Part shown: positions 5,782 through 55,901 of the stretch, piece by piece | Layout: each line of letters begins with the position of its first letter | Position numbering within the stretch: position 1 is the stretch's first letter | Origin: Candidatus Krumholzibacteriota bacterium | Lineage (GTDB): Bacteria; Krumholzibacteriota; Krumholzibacteriia; JAJRXK01 | Assembly (NCBI GenBank): GCA_029262065.1 | Contig: JAJDAC010000005.1 | Span: 62,001-126,000, forward strand | Direction: 5' to 3' | DNA length: 64,000 bases | Translations under genes and position numbers: made by a program | Notes under the pieces: generated by a model | Told to the model about the DNA's origin: nothing | The model's input: only the letters and a program-made list of their open reading frames with translations | Databases searched by the model: none

Positions 5782-5816
5782 ACCGCTCCAACAACACCCC
5801 TCACCGCTCCAACAAC
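5782..5816. repeat. 14-bp direct repeat across a kinase stop codon
   Basis: ACCGCTCCAACAAC occurs at 5782-5795 and again at 5803-5816, a period of 21 bp. The second copy covers the last codons and stop of the upstream kinase. This looks like a small slippage duplication in the 95-bp gap between two kinase genes. No function is evident. Confidence 0.6.
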
Positions 5817-8491
5817 CGCTCCCAATCTAGCACTACCCGAATCGACCGCGTGGGCAACCCACCCGTCGGCACATGAAACAGGAACCGATCGCCCAGCACC
5901 CCAATCAGACTCGGACTCGAGCTCGAATCCTCCATTTGATCGACGGGCCCCAGCGGTGGTTGGAACAGCCCAACCGGTCGTCCAATCTGCGGGACCGCAC
6001 CCGCGCCGTCGATCGACACGGCGTAGAGCACATCCTCCGAAGACAGGAAGTAGAGTTCGCTGCCGTCTTCGTTCCACTCGGGCGCCGAGCCACCGTCGTT
6101 CGAAACGATCCATCGCTGCGATCCGGGCCCGCTGCTGCGAAGGTACACCTCGTTGCGTCCCGATTCGTTCGAGTGGTAGGCGACCCACTTCTCGTCGGGG
6201 GAAATGCTCGGATGCCCTTGCGTGCGGGAGGCCTGCACGAGTCGCACCGGCAGCGCCCCTTCGCGAAGATCGAGTCTCCACAGGTCGTAGTCCGAATCGG
6301 ATTGCCACCCGTCGAAGATCATCATGGATCCTCCACCGGCAATGCTCAGTGTTCGTGGTCCCATACAGGTCTGCCCGTCGACCGGCAAGGTGGTGTCGAG
6401 CACCAGGACCCGCTTCCGGCCCGCGATGTCGTGACGGTAGAGCAGTCCCCCTTCGGAGTAGATCACACCGGCGTCGTCCGGGGTCCAGACGACCGCTTGG
6501 GCGTTGAACTGGTTGAGCTCGGCAACGAGGGATTGGGTTCCGCGCCCGAGGTCGAGCGTACGCACCGAGCCTCCGGTCTCGACCGAACCGACGCGAAAGA
6601 CGACCCGCGTGCCGTCGTGACTCAACGCGGGCGTGCTGTAGTAGTTCTCTTCGGCTACCGACTGGAGAGCTCGACCCGCGCGGTCGGCCCATTGGAAGTT
6701 CGTGGGCACGCGATCGGTCTGCAGATAGGCGAGGGTTCCTTCATCGGAAACGGAAAACGCGGAATTGCCCGTGCGCGGGTACGTGTCGCTGATGCCAGAG
6801 AACAGGGGGTACGGCTCACCAACCAGTTCATTGTAGCCAGACCCGAACTCGTGGGCCACGACCGTTCCCTGGCGCACGTAGAGCAGGTGGTTGCCAGCCG
6901 GGTACGCCTCGCTCATGCCATCGGGCAGTCGCAGCGGAGTGGCGTTGGAACCGTCGCTGAGATAGCGACGTCTCGGGTTGCTGTTGGCGCCATGCGCTGC
7001 GAACACGAAACGGGTTCGGTCGGGCAGGAAGTGCGGGAAACGGTGCGAGATCTCCGGCTCCTGAAGCGTGGTGACGGGTTCGGGAGTGCCGCCCAGGGCC
7101 GAGACCCGCAGCAACACGCCATCGCCCTCGGGGGTGTAGAGGATCGTACCGTCCTCGTTCCACGCACCGCCGCGACCATTGGGAGCATCGGCGATGATCT
7201 GCAGGCTTCCGGTCGCGAGGTCCATGCGCTTGAGCTTGCCGTCGGCGAAGAAGGCAATCGAACGCGAGTCCGGCGACCAGAACGGAAACATCGCGCGTTC
7301 GGTGCCTGGCAACTGCCTGGGGTCGGCGTTGTCGAAGTCGCGGATCCAGAAGCTGCTGGTGCCCGCGCGATCGATCGCGGAGAACACGATCGCGGTACCG
7401 TTCGAAGCCAGTTCGAACTCTCGCAGTTCGTAGCCGTCCGGCGCGGTGATGGCGAACTCTATAGGCTTCCGCGGTGCTTCCTGGCTTCCAAACCACATGC
7501 TGGCCATCGCGATGGCGAACGCGGCCAACAACACCCACGGAAGTACCAACACCCAACCCGGTGTTCCCGTGGCTCCGTTTCGTTGCGAAGACGCGTTCGG
7601 GTCGAGGCCCGCCGGCATGAAGCCGAAACTCTCGCCGCTGGGGTCGGCCAGGATCCCCTCGATCTCGATCCGCACGTCGGCCACGTCGTGAAAGCGATCT
7701 TCCTGATTCTTGGCCATGCAACGTTCGAGCAGTCGCCGCAGCAACGGGTGGCAGTCGGCGCCCAGTTCTTCCCACGGCGGATCGCGCTCGAGAATGCGCG
7801 CGATGACATCGGAGATGACCTCACCGTCGAAAGGCTTCTTTGCGGTGAGCATCTCGAACAGCACCGCGCCCAGCGCCCACACGTCGCTGCGACGATCGAT
7901 GGGGCGACCGCGCGCCTGTTCGGGACTCATGTAGGCGGCTGTACCAAGGATCACGCCGGCCTGGGTCATGGCCGAGGTAATGGTGGGTGAGTTGGCCAGG
8001 TCTTCCGCAGTGCCCGAGTTTTCGTAGGCCCGCGCCAGACCGAAGTCGAGCAGCTTGACCTTTCCATCGGAACCGAGCATGACGTTCGCCGGCTTGAGGT
8101 CGCGATGGATGATGCCCTTGTCGTGCGCGGCGGCGAGTCCGAGCGCGATCTGCCGCGCGATGCGTAGGGCCTCGGTGGTGTCGATGGCACCGCGGGAAAG
8201 GCGGGTTGACAGGTCTTCGCCCTCGGCCAACTCCATCACGAGGAATCGGTGTTCCGCTACATGTTCGAAGCCGTAGATCGACGCGACGTTGGGATGCTGT
8301 ACCGATGCCAGCGTACGTGCTTCGCGCTCGAAGCGCGCGAGGCGTTCTGGGTCCTGGCTGAACTGGGGAGGCAGCAGCTTGATCGCGACGTCGCGATCGA
8401 GCTTGGTGTCGCGCGCGCGGAACACCTCGCCCATGCCTCCCCGACCGAGGAGGGCTATGACGTCGTAGTGGGCGAGGGTCTTACCGATCAA
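5801..8491 (-). CDS. Ser/Thr protein kinase with TM segment and TolB/WD40-like propeller
   Basis: 896-residue kinase read from TTG at 8491, which has a GGAG Shine-Dalgarno about 8 nt upstream and encodes [11 protein letters not shown], the N-terminus shared by its paralogues. It has [25 protein letters not shown] and LDFGLA, then a membrane span ([20 protein letters not shown]) and a C-terminal six-bladed TolB-like propeller with repeated SPDS/SHDG/SPDE blade motifs. The frame stays open upstream as far as 8974 and would add 161 residues from a broken permease. That extension is rejected because the TTG has its own ribosome site and matches the family start. First of three tandem kinases on this strand and divergent from the secreted cassette at 9.0 kb. 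Confidence 0.9.
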
Positions 8492-8578
8492 TCTGTGCTC
8501 CGGGTGGTTGGGGGGCTGGGAGTGTAGGCGGGAGGCTATTCGGGGGTCAACGGCCCCGCGGTGGTCCTGGTTGGTAAT

Positions 8579-8974
8579 GTAAGGGTCCGGGTTCACCCCC
8601 AGCCTCGTCGCCAGCTCGATCGCAATCGGCGCCGCAATCACCGCCGTCGCCGTGTTGTTCATGACCGCCGACAGCGCGGCCGCGAGGACCGCCATGATTC
8701 CCACGTGCGCGCGGAGCGACCGGCCGCCCGTGATGACATGGCGTGCGAGCATCTCGATGACACCAGAATTCGATAAGCCGCGGCTGACGATCAAGACGAT
8801 CGCGATGATGATCGTGGCGGGGTGGCCGAACCCGGCGAACGCGCGTGATGTGGGGACGAGCCCGGTCAGCACGGCGACGAGCAGCGCCACGAAGGCGACG
8901 AGGTCGTAGCGCCAGCGGCCCCAGATCAGGAGTCCGAAGACTACGGCGAGGAGTGCGTTAAGAGATTCTCCCAC
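8579..8974 (-). pseudogene. Truncated SLC13-family permease (N-terminal third only)
   Basis: About 132 residues match the start of SLC13/DASS-type anion:Na+ symporters: WRYDLVAFVALLVAVLTGLV, then GFGHPATIIIAIVLIVSRGL and LSAVMNNTATAVIAAPIAI. Family members are usually about 400-600 residues with 10 or more membrane spans. Here homology stops near GVNPDPY (about 8579), and the frame runs through unrelated residues straight into the kinase that starts at 8491. A transporter cannot be made from this piece, so I call it a remnant left by a deletion or insertion. Its 5' end overlaps the promoter region of the divergent secreted cassette. An alternative is a real permease-kinase fusion, which I consider unlikely. 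Confidence 0.7.
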
Positions 8975-9010
8975 ATGAACCCAGCGACTCCTATATAATG
9001 ATACGGACCC
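8962..9010 (+). promoter_or_regulatory. Conserved promoter of secreted cassette, copy 1
   Basis: A perfect TATAAT lies at 8994-8999, 32 nt before the ATG at 9026. A 22-nt block around it (8989-9010) is identical to 54063-54084 upstream of cassette copy 2, and a GAGATTC motif at 8962-8968 recurs at 54035-54041 at nearly the same distance (32 against 33 nt to the TATAAT). No good TTGACA lies at the -35 position, so an activator or another sigma contact is possible. Confidence 0.7.
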
Positions 9011-9025
9011 ATTCGAAGGAACTCC

Positions 9026-9940
9026 ATGCGACGCTCCCGGTTCCTGTTCGGCTCCTTGATCCCGTTGACCCTGTTGGGGTTACTCACACCCATTAGTGGC
9101 CAGTTCTTCCCGGCCGCGTCGGCCACTCCCTGCGTGCCGGCCACTTTGACCATCGATCACGATAACACCGGGATCCCGGTGGTTCATGCCGTGGGTGATC
9201 CGGCACTGGCGTACGAGCTGCAGGCAAACGCGGACCTCGTGGGCTTCTGGGTTCCACTGGCTCCGTTCACTGGCAGCATCGACTATGTCGATGCCGATGC
9301 GCCGCTCTTGCCCAAACGTTTCTACCGTGCGGTATGTCTGGACGGCGCGATGCTGAGCCAGAACGCCGTGGGCTACGTAAAGGACAAACCTCCCGCGGGC
9401 AGTAAACGCTCAATGGTCAGTGGTTGCTTCAACGCGCCCGGCGGGTTGCCGCCAACGGTATCGCAGCTACTTGGTGGCCAGATCGACGGACAGATTCCGG
9501 CGGGCGTCACGGTGCACGTGTGGAACGGCACGACGTTCGAGAGTGCCCTGCGCGGTGCATCGGGCTGGATCAACGATCCTATCGTGATGCCCGGACACGG
9601 CTTCTGGATCGACGTCGATGACACGGCGCCGCCGCAGGACATCTACATTGTCGGTGAGGTACCCACGCAAGAAGTGATCGTGATCAACGGAATACAGAAT
9701 GACCTGCTGGGCTTGCCGTATCCAGTGGAGGTTTTCTGGGAAGACACCACACTCGCGGGCGTGGCGTCACTGGGTTCGACCCTGACCATCTTCGACGGGC
9801 TGTCGTATCTGGATTTCTCAAAGACGTTCATGGGTTGGAGTGGGGCCCCGGTTACTCTATCCGCCGGTGAAGGATTCTTCTTCTCCACGGGCGCCACGCT
9901 GAATTCGAATATCTGTACCAAACCCTACGATTGGCCATGA
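9026..9940 (+). CDS. Secreted protein of duplicated cassette, first gene (copy 1)
   Basis: 304-residue exported protein with an N-terminal signal peptide (hydrophobic PLTLLGLLTPI, cleavage probably near ASA-TP). The ATG has AAGGA 6 nt upstream. The first part contains LAYELQANADLVGFW...PLLPKRFYRAV, resembling the short beta-sandwich module ending FPxRFYR in extracellular proteins of Verrucomicrobia and related groups. The second part has two related units built around a VWNGTTF or TIFDGLSY strand, a GW...P stretch and a GHGFWI or GEGFFF strand, which suggests an internal duplication. Homologous along its whole length to the protein at 54101 and followed in both places by the same second gene, so the two probably act together outside the cytoplasm. 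Function unknown. Confidence 0.85.
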   Translation: MRRSRFLFGSLIPLTLLGLLTPISGQFFPAASATPCVPATLTIDHDNTGIPVVHAVGDPALAYELQANADLVGFWVPLAPFTGSIDYVDADAPLLPKRFYRAVCLDGAMLSQNAVGYVKDKPPAGSKRSMVSGCFNAPGGLPPTVSQLLGGQIDGQIPAGVTVHVWNGTTFESALRGASGWINDPIVMPGHGFWIDVDDTAPPQDIYIVGEVPTQEVIVINGIQNDLLGLPYPVEVFWEDTTLAGVASLGSTLTIFDGLSYLDFSKTFMGWSGAPVTLSAGEGFFFSTGATLNSNICTKPYDWP

Positions 9941-9987
9941 TGCGTACGATCAAGGCGTGCATTGAAGCGCGCGAAAGGTCCCGGACC

Positions 9988-10809
9988 ATGCAGACACGTT
10001 TGCGTACGACAATCGCAGTTCTGGCGTTGGCAGCTTTGATCGCCGCGCCGGCCCAGGCGCGGGTGGAGCTGGTATGGGGCGACGCCAACGGTTTCACCAT
10101 CGACGGTGTGAGTGTGTTCGATCACGGAACCTCTGAGCTGTTGGCCCAACTCATACTGACGCCGGGCGCCCCGGTGCCGCCTGATCCGAATACGATCGAC
10201 GGTGTCGGCAGCACAGACGTGTTGCTGGCGGCGGTCACCATGATCGTCGATGCCGCCAACCCCAACGTGGCCTTCCTGGAGAACTTCGGTGCTCTGGTAC
10301 CACCCCCGCTCCCGGGCGAGACTGTATTCGTGCGGGTGTTTGCCGCTACGAGTGTGGCGTCGGGCGTGCGCTACGCCGAAGCCAGCGTCGTTACCGTGCA
10401 AGACATAACGGTGCAACCGCCGCAACCTGTCACATTCACGGGGGCGCCGCCGGCCACGGGCTTCGGGGCACCGCCGCAGGAACTGAACCTCACGGTCGTC
10501 GATCCCACGGCGAACCTTCCGATCGCACATTCCGTTCGACTGGGCGAGGCCAGGCCCAACCCATTCAATCCCCGCACCGTGCTGACACTACGCGTTCCGG
10601 CCGGCGGGGCCGAGGTCATCGTAGCGGTGTTCGACGTACGCGGGCGTCGCGTAGGTACGCTGACCAACGGCTGGCGACCCGAAGGTGAGTACCGCCTGCA
10701 GTGGCAGGGGATCGATGCAGAGGGACGCCCGTTGCCATCGGGCGTGTACCGCGCGCGGTTGCAGAACGGCGACGACACGCAAGTGCGTTCGATGGTGTTG
10801 GTGCGCTAA
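9988..10809 (+). CDS. Secreted protein with C-terminal FlgD/T9SS-like module, second cassette gene (copy 1)
   Basis: 273 residues from ATG at 9988 (AAAGG 10 nt upstream); in-frame codons before it are not supported. The signal peptide ends near APAQA-RV. The middle part (VELVWGDANGFTIDGVSVFD onward) is an unassigned extracellular domain. The last 85 residues are a FlgD-Ig/T9SS type A-like module: ARPNPFNPRT, then VAVFDVRGRRVGTL, WQGIDAEGRPLPSGVYR and a final MVLVR. In the FCB group this module marks proteins for surface display or secretion. It starts 47 bp after the first cassette gene and has exactly the same length as its copy at 55080. Confidence 0.87.
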   Translation: MQTRLRTTIAVLALAALIAAPAQARVELVWGDANGFTIDGVSVFDHGTSELLAQLILTPGAPVPPDPNTIDGVGSTDVLLAAVTMIVDAANPNVAFLENFGALVPPPLPGETVFVRVFAATSVASGVRYAEASVVTVQDITVQPPQPVTFTGAPPATGFGAPPQELNLTVVDPTANLPIAHSVRLGEARPNPFNPRTVLTLRVPAGGAEVIVAVFDVRGRRVGTLTNGWRPEGEYRLQWQGIDAEGRPLPSGVYRARLQNGDDTQVRSMVLVR

Positions 10810-10917: not shown

Positions 10918-11526
10918 ATGCGAATCCTCCTTGCTCTCGTATTCACCTTGCTCGCGGCCAACGCCTCGGCGGCGATCGTCGCCACCACCGGTACCGTAGC
11001 GGTCGAAACAACGCCGTACCCGCCCCAGGACGACGACACCGTCTGGGTCTACCAGGAGAAACAGGCCGTTCCCTTCGTGGATACCCAGCCGCTCGACTTT
11101 GGCAGCATCGCACCGGGTACCCTGGTCGACAGCCACTACGTGCAGTACGACCCGCTCACGCCCGTGCACTCCGTTGGATCGGGATCCATCACGTTCGATG
11201 GCCCGGTGCTGGGAGTCATCACCCTCACGGCCAATCTCAACGCCGATCTATCGCCGGCGGCGGCGGCCACTTCGGATGAATACTTCGGACTGGCGACGAC
11301 GCTCGGTGCCTATCCGACCGGTGCCGATCCCCTCGCGCGTGGATTGGGTAGCCCCGAAGACGATCTGGTCATCACGATTGGTAGCCCCACGCTTCTCATC
11401 GATTCGTTGGAGATTCCGGTTTGTTGTGGTGGCAACCTCGATGGGTTTCGCGTGCTGACGGAATCGGTGGATCCGGTGTCGACGGACAGCAGGAGTTGGG
11501 GTGCGGTCAAGTCGCTGTTCGAGTAG
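10918..11526 (+). CDS. Secreted protein with C-terminal SWG tag
   Basis: 202 residues from ATG at 10918, chosen because it directly begins a signal peptide (MRILLALVFTLLAANASA) and has GAGG 5 nt upstream. The mature part (IVATTGTVAVETT onward) is predicted mostly beta and matches no family I recognise. It contains one Cys pair, PVCCGGNLDG. The end, SRSWGAVKSLFE, is almost identical to the ends of the proteins at 32560 and 33777 and close to that at 15526, although the rest of these proteins differs. Next gene starts 27 bp downstream in the same direction. Confidence 0.8.
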   Translation: MRILLALVFTLLAANASAAIVATTGTVAVETTPYPPQDDDTVWVYQEKQAVPFVDTQPLDFGSIAPGTLVDSHYVQYDPLTPVHSVGSGSITFDGPVLGVITLTANLNADLSPAAAATSDEYFGLATTLGAYPTGADPLARGLGSPEDDLVITIGSPTLLIDSLEIPVCCGGNLDGFRVLTESVDPVSTDSRSWGAVKSLFE

Positions 11527-53604: not shown

Positions 53605-53933
53605 GATATCCTGACCCGCTATCGAGCATCGCTGCTTGCGCAGTTGCAGAAGCACCTTCGCCAACTGCTGAGCTATGACGCCAACAGCCTCGAAGTCCTG
53701 GGCGATGGCGGCTTCGATCGTCTGGTCGAAGACCTCCTCGACGATCCCACCAATGCCCCCAAGCGCGTCGCGGCCTACGAGGTCATCCGCGAACTGGGTG
53801 TCGGTGGCATGGGCACCGTCTACGAAGCGCGCCAGCAGAATCCCAATCGCAACGTGAGTACGAAAACGGCGCGACCGGGCAACAGCCATTCTTCGCCATG
53901 GAACTCATACAGGGAGAAGAACTCGACCGCTAG
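53605..53933 (+). pseudogene. Decayed Ser/Thr kinase fragment
   Basis: The first part reads LTRYRASLLAQLQKHLRQLL, then RVAAYEVIRELGVGGMGTVYEA, the opening of a Hanks kinase with its glycine loop. After NPNRNV (about 53855) the reading frame is lost and about the next 60 codons of a kinase are missing. In another frame the sequence resumes with GQQPFFAMELIQGEELDR and a stop at 53931. Compared with the kinase at 16866 (VYEAEQ...FFAMELVRGQTL) this is an internal deletion plus frameshift, and everything after the hinge is gone. It stands directly upstream of secreted cassette copy 2. No intact gene lies between 53434 and 54100. Confidence 0.8.
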
Positions 53934-54034
53934 CCAATGTAACCACATCACAGAAAGTTGCTGGACCGCACGGTGGGAGCGAATAATTGGGTCGGGTTCC
54001 TTCGGTGGGGTCGTGAACGCGGTTGCCCGATTGA

Positions 54035-54084
54035 GAGATTCACCCATCACAGATCACACTGTTCCTATATAATGATACGGACCC
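54035..54084 (+). promoter_or_regulatory. Conserved promoter of secreted cassette, copy 2
   Basis: TATAAT at 54068-54073, 33 nt before the ATG, inside a 22-nt block (54063-54084) identical to 8989-9010. A GAGATTC element at 54035 recurs in copy 1 at the same distance. The sequence between the two elements is not conserved. Confidence 0.7.
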
Positions 54085-54100
54085 GATCGAGGGGGAATCC

Positions 54101-55033
54101 ATGCAACGTACACGGTTTGTATTCGGCGCTCTGGTCCGGCTGCCCATGCTGGCCAGGCTAGCCATGCTGGTCCTGCTCACGTGTTTCCCGGGATTGACTC
54201 CATTGGCCGTCTCGGCCACGCCCTGCGCTCCCGCCACGCTGACGATCGACCTGGATAACCAGGGAGTTCCCGTCGTGCACGCGACCGGCGATCCGGTGTT
54301 GGCCTATGTGCTACAGGCAACTGGCGATCTCCTTGCGCCCTGGCTCACGTTGGCCCCTTTCACGGGTAGCCTCGACTACGTCGACCCCGACGCTCCGCTC
54401 CTGCCCGCGCGTTATTACCGCGCCGTTTGCGTGGAGTCGGGCGCCGTGCTTAGCCAGAACGCGGTGGGGTACGTGAAGGTGAAGCGGCTCGCGGGGCAAC
54501 GCGCAATGGCCATTGGCTGCCTGAATGCCCCCGGCGGTTTGCCACCCACGGTATCCCAACTCATCGGTGGGCTGGTCGAGGGACAGATTCCCCTGGGCAC
54601 GACGGTGCATGTGTGGAACGGCGTGCAGTTCGAGAGCGCGGTGCTGGGGGAGTCGGGGTGGATCAACGACCCCCTCGTGCTTCCCGGCTTTGGGTTCTGG
54701 ATCGACGTGGACGACGCCAACGATCCGCACGACATCTACATGATCGGCGAAGTCCCGACGCAGGAACTGATCGTGGTGTCCGACATTCAAGACGACCTTG
54801 TGGGCGTTCCGTATCCGGTCGACGTGGTGTGGGACGACACCGCGCTGGCCGGCATGGCGCCGTTCGGCTCCACCATGACCATCTGGAATGGAACGACGTT
54901 CGTGGACTACGTGAAATCGCCCATGGGTTGGAGCGGCAACCCGGTCACGCTGACCGCGGGCGAAGCCGTCTTCCTTTCCACCGGCGTGGAGCTCAATCTC
55001 AACACCTGTGCCAAGCCGTACGATTGGCCGTGA
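54101..55033 (+). CDS. Secreted protein of duplicated cassette, first gene (copy 2)
   Basis: 310 residues; ATG 54101 with GAGGGGGA upstream. Signal region MLARLAMLVLLTCFPG, cleavage probably near VSA-TP. Collinear with the protein at 9026: AYVLQATGDLLAPWLTL...PARYYRAV, SQNAVGYVKV, APGGLPPTVSQLIGG, TVHVWNGVQFESAV, GFGFWIDVDD, IGEVPTQELIVV, and the identical end CAKPYDWP (copy 1 CTKPYDWP). Two half-similar units around VWNGVQF and IWNGTTF are again visible. Strong conservation with many silent and conservative changes suggests both copies are under selection. Exported; function unknown. Confidence 0.85.
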   Translation: MQRTRFVFGALVRLPMLARLAMLVLLTCFPGLTPLAVSATPCAPATLTIDLDNQGVPVVHATGDPVLAYVLQATGDLLAPWLTLAPFTGSLDYVDPDAPLLPARYYRAVCVESGAVLSQNAVGYVKVKRLAGQRAMAIGCLNAPGGLPPTVSQLIGGLVEGQIPLGTTVHVWNGVQFESAVLGESGWINDPLVLPGFGFWIDVDDANDPHDIYMIGEVPTQELIVVSDIQDDLVGVPYPVDVVWDDTALAGMAPFGSTMTIWNGTTFVDYVKSPMGWSGNPVTLTAGEAVFLSTGVELNLNTCAKPYDWP

Positions 55034-55079
55034 TGCAGAAATCCGCGGCGGGCGAGCGCCCATGCGAAAGGCCTTGATC

Positions 55080-55901
55080 ATGCAAACACGCTTACGCACT
55101 TCGATCGCAGCCATCGTGCTCGCCGTTCTGTTCGTGCCTGCGGCCCAGGCGCGCGTAGAGCTGGTCTGGGGTGACGCCAACGGATTCACCATCGATGGCG
55201 TGAGTGTCTTCGATCACGGAACGTCGACGTTGTTGGCCCAGCTTATTCTTACACCGAGCCCGGCCGCGCCGCCCGATCCTACCGCCCCCGACGGCGTTGG
55301 AAGCGGAGACCAGCTACTGGCGTCGCACGTGCTGAACGTCGACGCCGCGAATCCCCAGGCGGCATTCCTTCAGAATCTGGCGACCGCCGTGGGCCCGCCG
55401 CTTGCGGGTGAGACGGTGTACCTGCGCGTGTTCGCGGGCACCAGCGTCGTCTTGGGCACCCGCTTCGCGGAGGCGGCCGTGGTGACGGTGCAGGACATCA
55501 CCGTACAACCGCCGCAGGCCGTGACCTTCACGGGATCGCCGCCCGCGGCTGGCTTCGGCGCGCCGCCGCAGGAGTTGAACCTGACCGTGACCAACCCCAC
55601 GACCAATCTGCCGACTGCGCGCACGGTGTGGTTGGGCGAGGCCAGGCCGAATCCGTTCAATCCTCGCACGACGCTATCGTTGCGGGTGCCGCCCGGCGGG
55701 GCGGAGGTAGTAGTGTCCGTATTCGATGCTCGCGGACGGCGAGTGGGCACGATGGCCAACGGCTGGTTTTCGGGCGGCGAACGAACGCTCGAGTGGCATG
55801 GCACCGACACGAACGGCCGACCGTTGCCGTCGGGGGTATACCGGGCCCGACTGCAAGCCGGCGATCACACCCAGGTGCGGGCGATGGTGTTGGTGCGCTG
55901 A
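55080..55901 (+). CDS. Secreted protein with FlgD/T9SS-like module, second cassette gene (copy 2)
   Basis: 273 residues, the same length as its copy at 9988. ATG 55080 has AAAGG about 10 nt upstream, 46 bp after the first cassette gene. Signal peptide ending PAAQA-RV. The start of the mature protein, VELVWGDANGFTIDGVSVFD, is identical to copy 1; differences gather in the middle (TPSPAAPPDPTAPDGVGSGD). The C-terminal module has ARPNPFNPRT, VSVFDARGRRVGTM, WHGTDTNGRPLPSGVYR and MVLVR. Convergent with the kinase at 55941; the two stop regions form an inverted repeat. Confidence 0.87.
   Translation: MQTRLRTSIAAIVLAVLFVPAAQARVELVWGDANGFTIDGVSVFDHGTSTLLAQLILTPSPAAPPDPTAPDGVGSGDQLLASHVLNVDAANPQAAFLQNLATAVGPPLAGETVYLRVFAGTSVVLGTRFAEAAVVTVQDITVQPPQAVTFTGSPPAAGFGAPPQELNLTVTNPTTNLPTARTVWLGEARPNPFNPRTTLSLRVPPGGAEVVVSVFDARGRRVGTMANGWFSGGERTLEWHGTDTNGRPLPSGVYRARLQAGDHTQVRAMVLVR

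Follow-up and report, generated by a model that had tools for sequence, protein, structure and literature searches.

The window, by which we mean the whole stretch of 64,000 nucleotides that was analysed, contains two copies of a pair of genes for exported proteins, separated by 45 kb, both on the plus strand and with the same gene order (copy 1 at 9026-10809, copy 2 at 54101-55901). Gene 1 encodes 304 amino acids in copy 1 (9026..9940) and 310 in copy 2 (54101..55033), gene 2 encodes 273 in both (9988..10809 and 55080..55901), and the intergenic gaps measure 47 bp and 46 bp, respectively. Both proteins carry N-terminal signal peptides. An earlier note on this DNA had described a duplicated secreted cassette with near-identical spacing, second genes of equal length and collinear first genes, and both loci bear this out: the DNA of the two copies aligns colinearly and without a break (70% identity), beginning at the promoter and stopping where gene 2 ends, and the amino-acid identity between the copies is 67% for gene 1 and 74% for gene 2. 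A search of the whole genome (5.77 Mb) returned the two window copies and no third copy of the pair.

Both copies are kept under purifying selection. The dN/dS ratio between them is 0.155 (NG86) or 0.105 (ML) for gene 1 and 0.108 (NG86) or 0.065 (ML) for gene 2, values that are rough because dS is saturated (1.4-2.6) and yet lie far below 1. A ratio near 1 had been named beforehand as the outcome that would speak against the pair; the range found is about 0.07-0.16.

The promoter core, likewise announced as identical at both copies, is so. The element of about 20 bp, CCTATATAATGATACGGACC, is present at exactly two positions of the window, 8990 (8990..9010, plus strand, TATAAT at 8994-8999) and 54064 (54064..54084, plus strand, TATAAT at 54068-54073), and it is absent from 100 shuffles with up to 3 mismatches allowed. 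We considered the core as the mark of a wider regulon and rejected this, as the window and the fetched loci together contain just these two sites. Further upstream, both copies share the opening of a divergent gene on the minus strand, six codons reading M/V-G-E-S-L-N, GTGGGAGAATCTCTTAAC from 8974 at copy 1 (GESLN, 8957..8974) and ATGGGTGAATCTCTCAAT from 54047 at copy 2, where a remnant start MGESLN is left (54030..54047). At copy 1 these codons open a CitMHS transporter fragment, the start of which lies inside the duplicated block. The presence of the same codons upstream of both copies suggests that the duplicated block probably took in the divergent promoter.

The surroundings of the two copies show some further peculiarities. 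A single long frame on the minus strand (window 5801-8974) combines the truncated CitMHS N-terminus (about 133 residues) with a Ser/Thr kinase bearing PD40 repeats and resembles the product of a deletion that fused the two. What appears to be a fragment of a broken Ser/Thr kinase N-terminus lies on the plus strand immediately before copy 2 (window 53644-53940, VIRELGVGGMGTVYEARQ), and a kinase-PD40 gene adjoins each copy. Downstream of copy 1, the plus strand encodes an exported protein with neither a Pfam match nor a recognisable C-terminal tag (window 10918-11526).

Gene 2 is composed of a body (10057..10536 in copy 1, 55149-55628 in copy 2) and a C-terminal FlgD_ig / PNPFNP sorting tag (10537..10806 and 55629-55898), all on the plus strand. 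The earlier attribution of a FlgD/T9SS-like tag to the second protein holds, in that FlgD_ig (PF13860) is matched above its Pfam cut-off of 27 bits (34.4 and 39.8 bits) and T9SS type A (TIGR04183) below its cut-off of 23 bits (20.2 and 19.6 bits). The bodies are homologous to those of gene-2 proteins that end in PEP-CTERM: against a profile of 44 such gene-2 bodies, from which the window copies were left out, they score 44.6 and 38.2 bits, compared with 10.8 for the best of 1000 shuffles. The tag sits where the relatives have PEP-CTERM. PEP_CTERM (TIGR02595) is matched in 9 of the 9 non-window gene-2 rows scanned, whereas both window rows (2/2) match the FlgD/T9SS tail, and the PEP motif, the hydrophobic segment and the basic end are absent from both window proteins. 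Judged by these profile matches, gene 2 of the window is the same protein body as in the relatives with another tag.

The host genome contains FlgD_ig/PNPFNP tails in at least 150 places and, in a 2,354-aa ORF, a SprA_N domain above cut-off (E 6.7e-14), the one T9SS component looked at. The window itself showed no PEP-CTERM tail. The genome also encodes an exosortase (L116, G000:C14:311140-311889, E 6e-43), so that a tag change forced by a missing exosortase had to be rejected as an explanation, and both sorting routes may exist in this host. An EpsI-like frame follows the exosortase and a glycosyltransferase adjoins it; FlgD-tailed proteins abound in the same genome.

Neither copy of gene 1 matches a Pfam or TIGR family or carries a recognised sorting tag, in agreement with the earlier description of a first protein without a sorting module, and no named family was found to which it belongs. 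Its conserved part is a domain of two repeats (SQNAVGYV...GEVP...KPYDWP, 9353..9937 on the plus strand in copy 1) that is common to gene 1 of Verrucomicrobiota and Kiritimatiellota, where the domain often ends in KPYTWP instead of the KPYDWP of the window. This domain is preceded by a module ending in RFYR/RYYR (residues 37-104 of copy 1, 9134..9337, plus strand), which is extra in comparison with the standalone gene-1 relatives and matches other Verrucomicrobiota proteins (profile positions about 20-115 in L047-L052). AlphaFold models are too poor for interpretation (pLDDT 54 and 49), and a PDB fold search with them gave no significant match.

Homologues were found in none of 58 relatives from the host's class, and in a sample of 80 genomes from the host's phylum no standalone homologue appeared and the pair is confined to this genome (1/80). 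A 14-row concatenated profile of gene 1 and gene 2 recovered there the two window copies, one gene-1-like domain in a 1,189-aa ORF, and nothing else. Plasmid and PDB searches yielded nothing past the FlgD tail. The relatives lie instead in another phylum, to which we were led by a gene-1 pattern (LSQNAVGYV...WNG...GW...GFW...GEVP) that resembles Verrucomicrobial secreted proteins. The alignment of the retrieval scan was topped by a consensus of such proteins and was used for genome fetching alone; all claims of homology are based on later searches with profiles built from real sequences. With this lead, a pattern scan gave 29 loci, nearly all from Verrucomicrobiota or Kiritimatiellae. A first scan of contigs with peptide patterns derived from profile A1, which consists of the two window gene 1 proteins alone, had given no match, probably because these patterns are specific to the window copies. 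A1 itself recovered gene 1 in the retrieved Verrucomicrobiota/Kiritimatiellae genomes at E 5e-16 and in 34 of 388 Verrucomicrobiota/Kiritimatiellota genomes (best E 6e-23), and the concatenated profile matches in 88 of the 388. The window genes match the iterated profile at E about 1e-57. Phyla outside the two that were searched with profiles were covered by pattern scans. A description of the pair was not found in the open-licence literature; the pair, which had no name before, is present in many bacteria from a phylum other than that of its host.

Gene order is conserved in these bacteria. The fetched loci include 61 gene-1 homologues, 56 of them with downstream sequence and 53 of these distinct (L044, L045 and L046 repeat earlier loci). 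Gene 2 lies directly downstream, in the same order, in 52 of the 53 distinct loci with enough downstream sequence, a fraction that applies to the part of the family inspected, since the strongest gene-1 matches alone were examined and 11 loci come from closely related Verrucomicrobiales. In 50 of the 53, the gene directly after gene 1 is on the same strand and ends in PEP-CTERM. The pairs counted include L029, where the PEP-CTERM of gene 2 is severed by the contig end, and L074, where gene 2 ends in FG-GAP repeats and not in PEP-CTERM; the sole distinct locus without gene 2 (1/53) is L068. The ending of gene 2 in L074 represents a further C-terminal exchange. The median gap between the genes is 42.5 bp in the relatives compared with 47 and 46 bp in the window, and no third conserved neighbour was found beside the pair. 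Among the 32 gene-2 matches listed, 24 directly follow gene 1, two stand in tandem and six do neither, one of the latter coming from a genome in which gene 1 is located at a contig end. A second gene 2, or the whole pair, occurs in tandem in G269:C39, G190:C12 and G359:C74 (L075).

The division into an untagged first and a tagged second protein, already pointed out in the earlier note, is likewise conserved in the relatives, with a different type of tag. The same note had seen in the pair a real two-component extracellular system and had asked for its relatives. None were present in related genomes, but homologues are common in another phylum, and the adjacency at 52 of 53 distinct gene-1 loci together with the low dN/dS supports the claim. 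We infer that the two proteins may physically work together. Distances of gene 1 and gene 2 correlate with r 0.79, a correlation to which the core segment of gene 1 contributes beyond the framework (partial r 0.41); shared descent alone can yield both effects.

This core segment occupies the centre of each repeat and spans about 15-40 residues. In the relatives (L041, L053-L081 and others) it varies from protein to protein, yet its two versions within one protein match each other. Identity of the variable core between repeats 1 and 2 is 52% within proteins and 26% between proteins, and the excess is smaller in the flanking segments (26 vs 23% and 39 vs 28%). The partner repeat of the same protein is the best match in 34 of 46 cases by core identity and, when matches are ordered by score, takes first place in 32 of 44; the observed mean was reached in 0 of 20,000 permutations. 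In the window copies the score of the own partner ranks 18 and 4 of 44, and with the pattern this weak here the idea of a crosslinker rests on the relatives, in which the matched segments suggest two equivalent binding sites. A resemblance of the variable core to the accompanying gene 2 was considered and rejected, as no match was found. Two gene-1-like modules with similar middle segments are also present in a FlgD-tailed protein of 1,189 aa from the host's class (L083, G045:C16).

We lean, if only slightly, towards the interpretation that the window holds one extracellular pair, with gene 2 as the anchor and gene 1 as its partner, which was acquired, re-tagged and duplicated. As the pair is kept in another phylum with a different tag on gene 2, it looks like one extracellular unit with an exchangeable anchor. 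Both proteins would leave the cytoplasm by means of their N-terminal signal peptides, and protein 2 would be retained on the cell surface or in the matrix outside the cell through its C-terminal sorting tag. The untagged protein 1 would be a soluble partner, whose ligand is most likely protein 2 or else a polymer of the matrix, for example exopolysaccharide. The latter suggestion derives from the known link between PEP-CTERM and exopolysaccharide genes (PMC7468200) and from PepA in flocs, a PEP-CTERM protein of another bacterium for which an increase in bound polymers and restored floc formation have been shown (PMC9850573). Two repeats with matching variable segments in most relatives point to two equivalent binding sites, one per repeat, through which protein 1 may act as a crosslinker.

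In an unrooted tree the window copies are nearest to each other and group with Kiritimatiellota-type sequences (93/92, under the star threshold), connected by a long branch. This grouping and the absence from the rest of the phylum make acquisition, tag exchange and duplication the simplest order of events. The pair would most likely have been gained from a Kiritimatiellota/Verrucomicrobiota-like donor, a source and direction made uncertain by the long window branch and by the coverage of other phyla with pattern scans. Subsequently, the tag of protein 2 would have been swapped from PEP-CTERM (exosortase route) to FlgD_ig/PNPFNP (T9SS-like route), and the block with the divergent promoter would then have been duplicated and both copies retained under purifying selection. 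It is possible, and we put this forward tentatively, that the pair represents a widespread undescribed system: an untagged protein, equipped with two self-matched but otherwise variable recognition segments, would perform lineage-specific crosslinking to an anchored partner or the matrix, and the anchor would be exchangeable between exosortase and T9SS-like routes on moving between phyla.

A competing explanation, doubtful in our view but to be taken seriously, regards the products as separate surface proteins that are co-transcribed only and share a compartment without binding each other. Gene 2 diverges faster than gene 1, a few genomes have gene-2-type proteins away from gene 1, and the variable core of gene 1 is without a match to its own gene 2, as would be expected under this explanation. 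It accounts poorly, however, for an order, adjacency and short gap held at 52 of 53 distinct Verrucomicrobiota loci, and for an arrangement that persists in a different phylum and with a different tag, with no other neighbour retained. Somewhat less probable still is that the matching repeat segments reflect intragenic gene conversion only and are functionless. Some of the best-matched proteins do exceed the expected number of identical codons (25 vs 15 in L059, 21 vs 13 in L076), but over all proteins identical residues between repeats have identical codons at 0.49 compared with 0.43 expected. Given this slight excess, recent gene conversion accounts for some cases and not for most; the majority of matches are old in the DNA and kept in the protein.

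Two further explanations are less likely. A transfer in the opposite direction, from the host's phylum to Verrucomicrobiota, or an ancestral presence in both with loss elsewhere, is compatible with the tree, in which the missing root and the long branch to the window copies leave the direction unproven; we consider it improbable in view of a pair found in 1 of 80 host-phylum genomes against matches in 88 of 388 in the other phylum, with deep diversity there. Least credible is a spreading and duplicating conflict module of two genes, for instance of the toxin-immunity or the contact-dependent kind. Such a module would likewise be a two-gene unit, patchy in its own phylum, duplicated and with a variable segment in gene 1. 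What speaks against it is that the two proteins are exported and without a match to any toxin or immunity family, that gene order does not vary among the loci seen, that purifying selection acts on both copies, and that the variable segment has its match inside the protein and is not a C-terminus that has been swapped.

The exosortase/PEP-CTERM and the T9SS-like FlgD/PNPFNP routes are usually studied apart. One body with different tags in Verrucomicrobiota and in the host, next to the same partner, provides natural evidence that both tags may do an equivalent job, and the pair constitutes a matched set for testing the poorly characterised FlgD/PNPFNP tail. Gene 1 in turn offers a defined partner for a family of PEP-CTERM proteins, and its internally matched variable segments hint at a recognition function that is directly testable.

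Among the systems with which the pair can be compared, the large FlgD-tailed protein L083 contains, like gene 1, a twice-repeated module of this kind, but there the gene-1-like domain is embedded in a multi-domain protein, with no adjoining gene 2 in the stretch seen. The flocculation-associated PepA (NF033554; PMC9850573) is a secreted PEP-CTERM protein tied to exopolysaccharide and in this respect parallels the gene-2 relatives with PEP-CTERM; the paper's abstract names no gene-1-like partner. Five of 11 gene-2 rows match the PepA model at E <= 0.01, a match that may lie in the shared tag. PEP-CTERM/exosortase surface proteins in general (TIGR02595; Haft et al. 2006, as cited in PMC4960237) are, like the Verrucomicrobiota relatives of gene 2, small, exported and PEP-CTERM-ended, whereas gene 2 of the window has a FlgD_ig tail in place of PEP-CTERM and the family described here has a consistent gene 1 partner outside any named family found. 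With T9SS type A and FlgD_ig-tailed proteins (TIGR04183, PF13860), the window protein shares the PNPFNP motif and the C-terminal FlgD_ig domain, in a genome that also encodes SprA_N; it differs from them in missing the TIGR04183 cut-off and in a body whose family is otherwise mostly PEP-CTERM.
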